Assembly (NCBI GenBank): GCA_035236585.1
Contig: CP141132.1
Coordinates: 26,495,445 to 26,559,444, forward strand
From: Warburgia ugandensis
Lineage: Eukaryota; Streptophyta; Magnoliopsida; Canellales; Canellaceae
Reading direction: 5' to 3'
Length of the DNA: 64,000 bases
The notes beneath the pieces were generated by a model. The model had not been told where the DNA came from. It was given only the letters and a program-made list of their open reading frames with translations, and made no database searches. Position numbers and translations under genes: made by a program. The stretch's first letter is position 1, and each line of letters opens with the position of its first letter. Shown piece by piece: positions 1,933 to 55,502 of the stretch.

Positions 1933-1944
1933 TGGTATCAGAGC
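1933..1944 (+). promoter_or_regulatory. Primer-binding site (tRNA-iMet type) of P1
   Basis: TGGTATCAGAGC starts two bases after the LTR end at 1930. It is the standard plant primer site complementary to the 3' end of initiator Met tRNA, used to start minus-strand cDNA. It fixes the element on the + strand and marks the LTR/internal border. Confidence 0.93.
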
Positions 1945-42850: not shown

Positions 42851-43194
42851 CAAAAATTAAAACTTGTCCAAATTTTCTCTAAAGGAACACAAAGATATAC
42901 AAACATTACTTACCAAACTAGTAATTACATCATAGGTTCTAATCTCATCTCTCGTAGCAGTACTTCCTTCAAATAATAAGAAGAGGTCTGATAGCAACAT
43001 AATACCTTCAATATTCCACAAAGAAATGGTTGTCACTTTAGTGGGTCCCAATCCACTAATCTTTATAAACAAATCAAAACAAGTGAAGTTAGAATAAAAT
43101 ACAAAGAAAGTGAAGTAGTTTTTGTGAACAAAATAATTGTCTATGCATGCATATTACTTGATTCCAACTTCATGCACTTCTCAAACTCACTCAT

Positions 43195-43484
43195 ATCATC
43201 TAAAGGATCACCTAAACCTATAGATCAAAGCCAATTTTGAGCACAAATTAGGGCCTCCACATTCATAAATGCAAAGAACTTTGAAAAGGATCAAATGCAC
43301 ATCCTCTATTGCTAAATGTAGATGCAAAGGCAACTGTAGACACTGGAATTGATAGTAATTATGTGCTAATTGTGAGAATGTGGTATATTTTGTTGAATTG
43401 GTCTTCTATCACCCTACAATATCAAAAGATGGATTGTTCTACTCACCTAAGTCAGCTTCCTCTACCAAATACCTCTCAAGTTCA
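43195..43484 (-). pseudogene. hAT transposase pseudogene, C-terminal (dimerisation) part
   Basis: On the minus strand, with a frameshift, one reads FELERYLVEEADLGE, NSTKYTTFSQLA, LSIPVSTVAFASTFSNRGCA, FDPFQSS and VEALICAQNWL. This is the hATC dimerisation region of plant Ac-like RICESLEEPER transposases (SELDRYL, NSTKY, IPVSTVASESAFS, LDPFRSSL, VEALICTQNWL). It directly continues the part at 45446-46281 once the TRIM array and one AATAT copy are removed (TIF-ELERYL joins in frame). Stops and frameshifts show it is dead. Confidence 0.85.
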
Positions 43485-43752
43485 AATATTCTCACACACC
43501 CCCCGCACCATGAGGTACAATGGCCTTGTGAGGGGGGGTGAAGCGGAGAAGGCCGAGGGGGTGACGGTTGAGAGTTAGTCCCATACCGCTTGGAGAGGGG
43601 AGCTGGGCTGGGTGATAAGGAGTGGGAACACTCCTCACAGTAACAACGCGTTTTACCCTGGGAAGCTAGGGTGAGAACAAAGCTGTGCGGGCCCCGGCCC
43701 AAAGCGGACAATATCGCCACTGTGGACCCCCTCCGGGGGGTGTGTGACAAAA

Positions 43753-43764
43753 TGGTATCAGAGC
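43753..43764 (+). promoter_or_regulatory. TRIM primer-binding site 1
   Basis: TGGTATCAGAGC after GTGTGTGACAAAA, ending the first (type A) unit. Confidence 0.88.
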
Positions 43765-44104
43765 CAAACCCCGACCCCGAGGGTGGGTGGCTAGCCGCAC
43801 CGTCGCTCGTGTGGTGACACACGAGGGCGTGTGTCCCGTAGGCGGGAGATGACTACCGTGCCAAGATGGCCTGAGGCTTGGCCTTGTGAGGGGAGCCAAG
43901 ATGGTCTGAGGGCGGGACGCAGGAGAGTTAGTCCCACATCGGCTAGGGGGGTTGATGGGCCTGAGTTATAAGGGGCGGGAACGCCTCTCACAGTGTCGAC
44001 GCGTTTTCCCCTGAAAGGGGGAGAAGCAAAACCCATGGGTCCCACCGGGCCTGTACGGGACAATATCGCCACTGTGGACCCCCTCTGGGGGGTGTGTGTC
44101 AAAA

Positions 44105-44116
44105 TGGTATCAGAGC
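44105..44116 (+). promoter_or_regulatory. TRIM primer-binding site 2
   Basis: TGGTATCAGAGC after GTGTGTGTCAAAA, 352 bp from site 1, ending a type B unit. Confidence 0.88.
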
Positions 44117-44463
44117 CAGTCTCCTTGTGGTGATGGGTGGCTAACCGCATGCGTGCCTCGGTCACACGAGGGCGTGTGTCCCCTAAGGGGGAGAGATCTA
44201 GCCTTGCCGGCTGAGGCACTGTGAGGTACCATGGCCTTGTGAGGGGTGGCGAAGCGGAGAAGGTCGAGGGGGTGACGGTTGAGAGTTAGTCCCATACCGC
44301 TTGGAGAGGGGAGCTGGGCTGGGTGATAAGGAGTGGGAACACTCCTCACAGTAACAACGCGTTTTACCCTGGGAAGCCAGGGTGAGAACAAAGCCGTGCG
44401 GGCCCTGGCCCAAAGCGGACAATATTGTTACTGTGGACCCCACGGTGGGTGGGGTGTGTTAAA

Positions 44464-44475
44464 TGGTATCAGAGC
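44464..44475 (+). promoter_or_regulatory. TRIM primer-binding site 3
   Basis: TGGTATCAGAGC after GGGGTGTGTTAAA, 359 bp from site 2, ending a type A unit. Confidence 0.85.
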
Positions 44476-44731
44476 TGGAGTCCGACATGGCGAACTGTGC
44501 CAAGATGGCTTGCGGGTTGGCCTTGTGAGGGGACCCAAGATAGTCTGAGGAGGAACACGGGAGGTATCGCTAGGGGGACGGTGATGGGCCAGGAGTGCCC
44601 GAGACTTCGGTCTCTCACAGTGTCGACGCGTTTTCCCCTGCGAGGGGGAGAAGCAAAACCCGTGGGTCCCACCAGGCCTGTATGGGACAATATCGCCACT
44701 GTGGACCCCCTCCGGGGGGTGTGTGACAAAA

Positions 44732-44743
44732 TGGTATCAGAGC
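44732..44743 (+). promoter_or_regulatory. TRIM primer-binding site 4
   Basis: TGGTATCAGAGC 268 bp from site 3, ending the short degenerate B' unit, which has lost about 80 bp. Confidence 0.85.
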
Positions 44744-45083
44744 CAAACCCCGACCCCAAGGGTGGATGGCTAGCCACACCGTCGCTCGTGTGGTGACACA
44801 CGGGGGTGTGTGTCCCGTAGGCGGGAGATGGCTATCGTGCCAAGATGTCCTGAGGCTTGGCCTTGTGAGGGAAGCTAAGATGGTCTGAGGGTGGGATGCA
44901 GGAGAGTTAGTCCCATACCGGCTAGGGGGGGTGATGGGCCTGAGTGATAAGGGGCGGGAATGCCTCTCACAGTGTCGACACATTTTCCCCTGCGAGGGGG
45001 AGAAGCAAAACCCGTGGGTCCCACCGGGCCTGTACGAGAAAATATTGCCACTGTGGACCCCCTCCGGGGGGTGTGTGACAAAA

Positions 45084-45095
45084 TGGTATCAGAGC
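45084..45095 (+). promoter_or_regulatory. TRIM primer-binding site 5
   Basis: TGGTATCAGAGC 352 bp from site 4, ending a type B unit. The last A unit after it ends at the target duplication without a primer site, as a 3' LTR should. Confidence 0.88.
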
Positions 45096-45445
45096 CAGTC
45101 TCCTCGTGGTGATGGGTGGCTAACCGCATGCGTGCCTCGGTCACACGAGGGCGTGTGTCCCCTAAGGGGGAGAGATCTAGCCTTGCCGGCTGAGGCACCA
45201 TGAGGTACCATGGCCTTATGAGGGGTGGCAAAGTGGAGAAGGCCGAGGGGGTGACGGTTGAGAGTTAGTCCCATACCGCCTGGAGAGGGGAGCTGGGCTG
45301 GGTGATAAGGAGTGGGAACACTCCTCACAATAACAATGCATTTTACCCTGGGAAGCCAGGGTGAGAACAAAGCCGTGCGGGCCCCAGCCCAAAGCGGACA
45401 ATATTGTTATTATGGACCCCATGATGGGTGGGGTGTGTCAAATAT

Positions 45446-46281
45446 GGTACTTGTACCACTTTGTTTCTAAACCATAAGTCTTACAAACTCATACCCAAGA
45501 AACAAGTTAAACTTTCCTCTTCATCCTCATCCTCATCATCAACTTCAACAAAACTTTTGCTTAAAACTTAACTAGCCTTTGCAAGAACATTCCCATCAAC
45601 ATCATGTTTAATGTACCATACAAGTAAGTGTATGATAGTCTCTCTCATTGCTCTTATTGAGTTCTCTACTACTAAAGCATCATAAACTTTTCAAAGACAA
45701 AACTACAAAAAAGGAAACTTGTACCTAGGATCAAGTACAACCAACAACATATTCAAATTATCAAACTTGACCCAATACTTGTTAAACTTTGGCTACATAC
45801 AATCAAATATTACATAAAAGATTATCTCTATATTTGTACAAGCTAGGGATAGCGATATGAATAGTTATAATCTCCTCAAATATTGCCACGAAAGAGACAA
45901 ACTTAGTGCCTAAAAACCGCAACGTAGCCTCACAAATTTTTTTCAAAAGCTTCACAAACAACTTTGCCCTGGTCCAATCATCAAGTAGTGGAGGCCCCAC
46001 CACTTTCTTTGCTACTTTCCCTCTCCCACTAACATCACCCTTTTCCTCATTATTGAACCCATCTTTGTCTATAAATGCTTTTTATATGAGTTGTCATCTT
46101 CATTTAGATGTGCAAATGCTTTTTGAAACTATACAGCTCTCTCCAACATATGATATGTCTAGTTCTATCTAGTACACACATCTAAACACATTGTACTTTT
46201 ACAAGTAATGCTTTCCCTCTGAACATAAGTCTTGAAAATAGTTATCCTAGATAGTGAAGATCCCACATTTCTCATATTTTT
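45446..46281 (-). pseudogene. hAT transposase pseudogene, middle part
   Basis: On the minus strand broken frames read RESITCKSTMCLDVCTR, TYHMLERAV, KAFAHLNEDDNSYKK, LFVKLLKKICEATLRFLGTK, KFNKYWVKFDNLNMLLVVLD and PRYKF, then a Glu/Asp-rich EVDDEDEDEEES stretch. These follow the plant hAT order LDVPTRWNSTYLML, FVKFLKxFYEATLRFSG, KFDKYWG and VLDPRYK. The Trp in TRWNST is a stop. The part ends at the AATAT where the TRIM array inserted. Confidence 0.85.
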
Positions 46282-47150
46282 TCAAAACTTTAAGATAGAC
46301 TCATCCATCTCTTTCAAACCCTCACAAATAATAAGATTTAAGATGTGAGCACAGCATCTCATATATAGAAACTCGTGCTTTGAGATGGTAGTCTTCCTCT
46401 TCAAATAATTGTTTACACCATTATTTGAACTTGCATTATCCACCATACTAGTGAGTAGCTTCTCTCGCCCCACCCTATCAAACAATCCACAAATTTTTTT
46501 CCCCATTGACTCACCCTTGGGATTGGAAATTGAGCAAATGTTTAAAATTTTCTTTTGAAGTTTCCATTCACTATCAATGTAATGGGCTATGAGGCACATG
46601 AAGTTTAAATTTTGTATAAATTTTTGTGCATCAGTGGTTAGGCAAGTTCTTTTACCTTTGAGTAAATGCTTCAAAATTTTCTTCTCTGATAAGTATATTT
46701 GCAAGCAATCTCTAGTCACAAAAGTGCCACTATGAATATTAAACTTAGATTGCATCACGTGCACAAAATCTCTGAAGCCTTCATTTCCAAGCACACTAAA
46801 TATCAACTCACTAATAAATCTTAGCAAGGGCTCTTCTACAAGCTTCAACATTAAAAGCCCTAGTGACGAGCTAGCTCCTAAATTCTGCCTCACTAGATAC
46901 TGCTACTTGTTTAAAACCAAAACTGCTTTGGACCTTATCTTGTATTCTATTTGGGAACGTCTTACACTTTGATATGTGTAAAATCAAAATCTTAGTCCTA
47001 TTGCATATTGGATCACTTGACTAATCCTTACTGTAATAATTACATGCACACCTAGGATTTGGGTTACCATTCATTGTTAGTTTTGTAAAATGGTCCCATG
47101 CCTATGATTACTTTCTTTTGTTTTTAACACTTTGTGCCTCATTAGAGTAT
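46282..47150 (-). pseudogene. hAT transposase pseudogene, BED finger and catalytic core
   Basis: The longest open piece (46282-46893, 203 codons) reads EGFRDFVHVMQSKFNIHS, FVTRDCLQIYLSEKKILKHL, TCLTTDAQKF (first catalytic Asp), HYIDSEWKLQKKI, SMVDNASSNN (second Asp) and MRCCAHILNLIICEGLKEMD (conserved RCxAH). Upstream, 46920-47140 in another frame encodes a BED zinc finger: HFTKLTMNGNPNPRCACNYY and ILHISKCK; the expected CNYC has become CNYY, so the finger is broken. Family: Ac/Tam3-type, RICESLEEPER-like, about 650-700 residues when whole. I could not find terminal inverted repeats or an 8-bp target duplication. Confidence 0.9.
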
Positions 47151-55490: not shown

Positions 55491-55502
55491 GCTCTGATAC
55501 CA
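55491..55502 (-). promoter_or_regulatory. Primer-binding site (tRNA-iMet type) of P2
   Basis: TGGTATCAGAGC on the minus strand, two bases from the LTR at 55505. Fixes the minus orientation. Confidence 0.93.

Follow-up and report, generated by a model that had tools for sequence, protein, structure and literature searches.

Layout of the array

The window, i.e. the whole stretch of 64,000 nucleotides analysed here (C7:26495445-26559444 of the host genome), contains a block of six LTR-like units at 43490-45440, arranged in the order A1 B1 A2 B' B2 A3. Exact copies of the primer site TGGTATCAGAGC, which we take to be of the tRNA-Met type, start at 43753, 44105, 44464, 44732 and 45084 and are spaced by 352, 359, 268 and 352 bp. 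The block has a G+C content of 60%, compared to 36% for the window. It is inserted in a decayed hAT element, and the features of the locus are as follows.

43240..43489, strand -: decayed hAT dimerisation part, the other flank of the target; weak PF05699 matches
43485..43489, no strand: left target-site duplication AATAT; chance 0.0017
43490..43505, strand -: inverted U5 stub TCTCACACACCCCCCG; identical at 15 of 16 bases to a B-type U5 end in inverted orientation
43505..43749, strand +: unit A1; A-type U3/R and B-type U5 from about 43706-43717, by diagnostic sites
43753..43764, strand +: primer-binding site 1
43765..43849, strand +: internal segment iX
43850..44101, strand +: unit B1
44105..44116, strand +: primer-binding site 2
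44117..44195, strand +: internal segment iY
44196..44460, strand +: unit A2
44464..44475, strand +: primer-binding site 3
44476..44488, strand +: internal segment iZ, short
44489..44728, strand +: unit B'; foreign U3, B-type R-U5 from TCTCACAG onward
44732..44743, strand +: primer-binding site 4
44744..44828, strand +: internal segment iX, copy 2
44829..45080, strand +: unit B2
45084..45095, strand +: primer-binding site 5
45096..45174, strand +: internal segment iY, copy 2
45175..45440, strand +: unit A3; the insertion ends on the right with its U5 end GGTGTGTCA
45441..45445, no strand: right target-site duplication AATAT
45446..46902, strand -: decayed hAT transposase, RNase-H part, the interrupted target; PF14372, E 5e-11

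The LTR-like units measure 240-266 bp and the internal segments 13-85 bp, the latter being too small for retroelement proteins, as is characteristic of TRIM elements. The duplication AATAT falls in the 4-6 bp range of TRIM target duplications, as do those of eight of the ten clusters in the prediction test described below. A further TRIM character, like direct LTRs at both ends (U3...U5), is absent from the window array. The six LTR-like units counted in the first-pass annotation are indeed present, but they are not six LTRs in the normal sense, the block having on its left an inverted U5 stub and no LTR start. Short hairpins of the type CACACGAGGGCGTGTG, including variants, occur in every long internal segment (43818-43833, 44163-44178, 44797-44812 and 45142-45157). 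This hairpin is kept by both iX and iY, several strand switches elsewhere in the genome fall just beyond it, and it could be a packaging or dimer signal.

At up to two mismatches TGGTATCAGAGC has 13 matches in the window, with 3.85 expected from shuffling; seven of the 13 are exact, and five of these seven lie inside the block. The exact copies outside the block, at 1933-1944 (+) and 55491-55502 (-), are possibly primer sites of other LTR elements. The window holds no further match to the block at E 0.01. In viral and bacterial sequence collections the exact patterns found no match, and the stretches retrieved with a 14-base pattern had no similarity to the block.

The target site

AATAT directly flanks the block on both sides, and a chance 5-mer match in the local background has a probability of 0.0017, in agreement with the single outer duplication reported in the first-pass annotation. 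The same annotation had the hAT frame rejoining upon removal of the block. The frame is open across the rejoined site, and the right-hand part is recognised by PF14372 with the E value given above, but the left side is weak: one Pfam search assigned it to no family, two fragments match the dimerisation region at E 0.14 and 0.0013, below the cut-off, and the hAT fragment joined across the insertion site matched no Pfam family. The rejoined frame is consequently treated as fair, not strong, evidence.

Subtype anatomy and the internal repeat

The array had been described as A-B-A-B'-B-A with six units and five primer sites. Counts, order and spacing hold, but A1 is a hybrid, half of B' is foreign and the very start of A1 contains no A sequence. 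Unit A1 is A-type at its diagnostic positions between 43642 and 43705 and B-type at all six from 43717 onward; its first 15-16 bases are non-A and match the inverted U5 end. Comparison with A3 gives 13 differences over 210 sites in the body, 11 over 35 in the tail (body versus tail, p = 7e-5) and 12 over 15 in the head. The overall identity of the two outer units is 86%; the bodies are 94% alike and the subtypes differ at both tips. The first half of B' differs from B1 at 41 of 124 bases and from B2 at 46 of 124, and the B-type second half differs from either at 7 of 116.

A normal reverse-transcription cycle results in two identical outer LTRs. The dissimilarity of A1 and A3 thus shows that the array is not the product of one such cycle, and an ordinary insertion with two A-type LTRs was rejected, given that neither tip of unit 1 has the subtype of the corresponding tip of unit 6. 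The two tips of A1 match each other at 15 of 16 bases, as would be expected of an ordinary LTR insertion with long inverted tips native to its first LTR (TGTCACACACCCCCC...GGGGGGTGTGTGACA). Such a start should however be common to the 3' LTR, where it is absent. A2, A3 and other A copies at inner U3 starts begin with ATCTAGC instead, and among the matches listed no other A match reaches the first 15 bases of A1, making natural inverted tips a highly improbable explanation.

A 749-bp run is present twice in the block (43711-44459 and 44690-45438), gapless, with 44 differences and 94% identity. C-to-T or G-to-A changes number 27 in the second copy and 11 in the first (p = 0.014), for which a different age or a different methylation of the two halves are candidate readings. 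The repeat leaves room for one later tandem duplication in the window. It is also a sequence feature in favour of growth in place, according to which the AATAT site first received a simple TRIM, and unequal crossing over or gene conversion with other copies added further units afterwards; in the excerpted text of the Wukong report (PMC4528315), multi-LTR TRIMs are explained in this manner. The differing subtypes at both tips of outer units with bodies 94% alike argue against such a history, and so do the relationships of the units. Ranked by similarity among 96 A units, A2 is 7th and A3 57th as seen from A1; from A2, the ranks of A1 and A3 are 53rd and 77th; and from A3, those of A1 and A2 are 22nd and 34th. 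Of the nine B units, none is farther from B1 than B2 is, and B1 takes fourth place among the nearest relatives of B2. The units of the window are nearer to copies elsewhere than to each other and do not appear to be recent local duplicates, albeit this comparison is weak for old events in a star-like family.

Related clusters in the host genome

The host genome (1.12 Gb, 14 contigs) was searched with the block, giving at least 128 matches (30 candidates scored of 2414), and with A1, giving at least 119 (40 of 1046). The resulting sample consists of 42 distinct clusters including the window, which represent the best matches to the window rather than a random draw, and which were typed against A, B, B' and C-type units. 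A-type sequence is mixed with other types in 32 of the 42 clusters (30 when only pieces of at least 60 bp are counted), and 31 hold both orientations (28 by the same size limit). Alternation of LTR types is typical of the 42 clusters and no peculiarity of the window locus. The first-pass annotation had regarded this alternation as unusual, and had named a genome in which all other copies are simple elements as the outcome that would count against its reading; the 32 mixed clusters contradict the former and do not show the latter. One pair, A followed by B', recurs at nine loci, the window being one of them.

A B-type array at G000:C6:73157584-73164990 comprises at least 28 units on one strand, many at a period of about 250 bp, is far longer than most and could be turning into a satellite. 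At G000:C1:105790487-105795425, at least 13 A-type units on one strand with a period of about 355 bp are followed, on the opposite strand, by two more units, the first of them incomplete. The central spacers of L139, L149 and L169 contain a fragment of another LTR-like type (CAATATTGTC...GCTCTGGGGCTCC...), and the arrays may thus involve one additional subfamily or more.

Two outward U5 ends and their target duplications

The arrays start with an inverted U5 and finish with a direct one. U5 being the 3' end of the LTR, it faces outward on both sides. This arrangement, with an exact 5-bp duplication outside the two outward U5 ends, is found in 26 of the 42 clusters: 24 were identified by a motif scan, and to these are added L126, the right end of which lies in L180, and the window itself, scored separately as its mutated left tip was missed by the scan motif. 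L177 has a duplication at four of five bases. The duplicated sequences vary from site to site (TTTCT, TGTTA, GAACC, CTTTG, AGAAA, CGAGG, CATGA, GAACT and others), displacing the two flanks by 7 or by 13 bases as a control left 0 and 1 matches, respectively, and none of the 24 scanned pairs has a primer site just outside the duplication. One outer duplication, two integrase-type ends and like structures at many sites with different duplications support the suggestion of the first-pass annotation that the array itself was mobilised. Growth in place does not produce, at dozens of sites, arrays whose U5 faces outward at either end. A crossover of circular cDNA into a resident element, considered for A1/A2, was dropped given the two-U5 ends at other loci.

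A two-U5 duplication is absent from 15 of the 42 clusters. A short flank explains six of these (L128, L134, L140, L142, L146 and L154); in L132, L163, L164 and L173 the 5' side is cut or unclear and no duplication was seen, and the ends of L135, L160, L162, L165 and L171 are not clear-cut. L135 includes, from 1491 to about 2122, a simple A-internal-A copy with exact AGCGT on both sides; one of its ends is a U5 tip, and the other precedes the A-type U3 start by 9 bases. This copy could have inserted in a near-normal U3...U5 fashion, or else carry a tiny stub (GACA). Our confidence in a two-U5 composite is slightly reduced as L135 is perhaps a normal-type copy. No clear U3...U5 copy with a duplication was present among the loci read, in a scan covering -3 to +6 bases around the motif, a range that L135 falls outside. 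The scan gave 230 U3-start-like motifs, 110 of them without a preceding polypurine tract and, with three mismatches allowed, many by chance. Three U3-start rows matching a 5-mer (CAAAA and AAATG, AGGTG, CAAAA) are internal U5/primer-site or U5/U3 joins and were rejected as duplications.

The exact 40-base A-type U5 end has 199 copies genome-wide, 100 forward and 99 reverse. Among the 100 of these 199 copies listed, 12 opposite-strand neighbours within 3 kb point outward, against 0 that point inward (p = 0.0005). Excluding L126 and L177, already in the sample, the 12 outward clusters left ten for a prediction test, in which the first and last U5 copy were chosen by coordinates alone and 24 bases were taken at each. 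A perfect 5-bp duplication was found in eight of the ten. Outside the right end of the two misses stands the primer site AATGGTATCAGA in one case and its start (AATGGTA) in the other, and both are probably inner units. The test is less biased than the set of 42 best matches, but requires an A-type U5 end on both sides.

The left stub of the window, located where full inverted arms stand at other loci, is best read as the left tip of a two-U5 insertion. It is either the remnant of an inverted left arm or the whole original extent of that arm. A long arm present at insertion and mostly deleted afterwards, leaving the 16-bp stub, is a plausible history to which we give somewhat less than even odds. 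Long arms are common, as reflected by the 28 to 31 of 42 clusters with both orientations, and long palindromes are generally unstable. On the other hand, like stubs exist at L127 (about 13 bp, duplication GAACC) and at L124 (about 31 bp, duplication GACCC), where the stub runs straight into the U3 start. Short arms of about 57 bp in L139 and about 93 bp in L145 likewise weigh against a deletion, as short arms may arise at birth.

Joins at the primer site

The composition of 118 primer-site junctions was compared on both sides. The internal segment has the type of the downstream unit in 115 of the 118, and Cramer's V of the internal type is 0.96 with the downstream unit and 0.40 with the upstream one. 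Restricted to the 45 mixed-type junctions, the internal segment matches downstream in 42 and upstream in three. For LTRs with an A, B or C body, 32 mixed junctions are informative on U5, which matches the body of its own LTR in 29 of them, the three exceptions being A1 of the window and two poorly scoring L122 units; both rules hold in 26 of the 32. These counts are not independent, as recurring joins such as A to B' may descend from one event. Since the internal segment follows the downstream LTR and U5 follows its own LTR, the units are mostly joined at the primer-binding site. The switch in type falls mostly within about 20 bases around it, and on these junction counts the array units behave as modules of primer site, internal segment and LTR chained at the primer site. 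Joins of other kinds exist as well: U5 is joined to U3 without internal segment or primer site in L125, L126, L141, L142, L146, L162 and L174, and the join of A1 to iX in the window lies inside the LTR, off the primer site.

The position of the joins bears on two of the alternatives. Growth by recombination between subfamilies had been proposed in the first-pass annotation. Crossing over between LTRs would be expected to fall inside them; the joins of mixed arrays are instead mostly at the primer site, with about 12-20 shared bases. Together with the finding that the units of the window are not mutual nearest relatives among the 96 A and nine B units, this leaves the proposal unsupported, and we regard growth in place as unlikely. 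Alternatively, the family could now move as a DNA element, in the form of foldback units with inverted U5 tips on which an integrase-like transposase acts by cut-and-paste or by copying, with no reverse transcription involved. The tips are inverted repeats, TG...CA, with 5-bp duplications, and some composite pairs do recur, such as A then B'. However, the primer-site joins point to reverse transcription, several LTR breakpoints are near the expected RNA start as inferred from a TATA-like motif, and the larger mixed arrays, to judge from their listing, appear to differ in unit order. A DNA-element mode is therefore given little weight, albeit marginally more than growth in place.

Head-to-head joins

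Strand changes between neighbouring units are head-to-head in 34 of 37 cases and tail-to-tail in three; for pieces of at least 60 bp the numbers are 29 and two. U3 start is joined near-exactly to U3 start in L131 and L168, as well as in L138 with 2 and L141 with 4 extra bases, and an overlap of 8-17 bp is seen at the head-to-head joins of L125, L161, L166 and L170. In L130, L140, L162 and L166, the polypurine tract is crossed into the internal hairpin before the strand switches. L145, which is the same site as L159 (463 bp, AGAAA), turns strand at a natural LTR hairpin, ACCCTGGGAAGCCAGGGT. Such joins may reflect strand switching by nascent cDNA, partly self-primed.

Proposed origin

The window array arrived in one piece, yet it is no ordinary LTR-internal-LTR cDNA, as units 1 and 6 belong to different subtypes. 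Our preferred reading, with a probability of roughly 0.7, is that the block represents one insertion of a composite TRIM cDNA with a U5 end at both tips. For the molecule to form, LTR-retrotransposon machinery would act in trans to reverse transcribe TRIM RNAs. Strands ending in a copy of the primer site could anneal to the primer site of another molecule, and this annealing would chain modules from different subfamilies. Two such strands would then be joined, or switch, head-to-head at their upstream tips, in many cases where they share a short match. The product would carry U5 at both tips, and integrase would insert this two-U5 molecule with a 5-bp stagger. The RNA and cDNA intermediates of array formation are what we infer from the joins and ends described above.

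The usual TG is missing from the U3 start of A-type units (ATCTAGCC), and the U3 tip may on this account be a poor integrase substrate, which would explain the absence of clear U3...U5 insertions. A stronger formulation is that the family no longer integrates by its U3 end and has two-U5 foldback molecules as its sole means of spread, its arrays being assembled inside the particle when strands transfer at the primer site between RNAs of different subfamilies. We hold this to be nearly, but not quite, an even bet.

Relation to known arrays

DIRS elements are retroelements with inverted terminal repeats that use a recombinase and are not known to leave target duplications. Unlike these, the family in the window has TG...CA tips and 5-bp duplications. 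The window array, with six LTR-like units and five internal segments, falls within the definition of TA-TRIMs (at least three LTRs and two internals). As far as the excerpted text of Gao et al. 2016 goes (PMC4717578), TA-TRIMs occur in 129 subfamilies in 35 of 43 genomes, some arrays having five LTRs; they share with the window array several LTRs and internals in a row and one outer 5-bp duplication. The arrays are there described within TRIM subfamilies, and in the same excerpts outward U5 and primer-site joins, both found here, are not stated. A figure legend in that paper presents one maize case of two inverted TRIMs with the duplication CTTCA. Wukong of maize, as covered by the excerpts of PMC4528315, is similar in having up to seven LTRs and, in most copies, duplications, but its LTRs are usually in one orientation and its arrays are ascribed to recombination of adjacent intact elements.

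Cassandra likewise forms long LTR-internal arrays, and template switching is one route discussed for it in the consulted sections of PMC7215508; its units are however reported to be uniform and contain 5S sequence. A Cassandra identity was rejected, as no 5S match exists in 43000-46000; one microRNA match in that search scored far below the gathering score and was judged a chance match. Template switching is the mechanism proposed by Sabot and Schulman 2007 (PMC1950507), whose three-LTR composites with an outer 5-bp duplication are, in the portion of the text at hand, attributed to one reverse-transcription cycle. Their model has near-identical outer LTRs and switching at R, whereas in the window array the outer ends differ (A1/A3, 86%) and the joins are mostly at the primer site. 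To the extent of their excerpts, PMC12312487 and PMC4558846 have little bearing on two-U5 TRIM arrays. Among titles and opening lines of abstracts in the open-access literature, no report was recognised of TRIMs that insert by a pair of U5 ends, nor of arrays joined at the primer site. The unusual points of the window array are its paired outward U5 tips and its primer-site joins.

In the excerpts cited above, two origins are proposed for multi-LTR TRIM arrays, recombination after insertion and events during reverse transcription (PMC4528315, PMC7215508, PMC1950507). The family in the window carries readable marks of the reverse-transcription route, namely the primer-site joins between its modules and its integration by way of paired U5 tips, and provides a test bed for array formation within one sequenced genome. 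Its ends suggest that a plant integrase may use paired U5 tips in nature. If the family does spread only in this form, a two-U5 foldback family would stand midway between LTR retroelements and inverted-repeat transposons.
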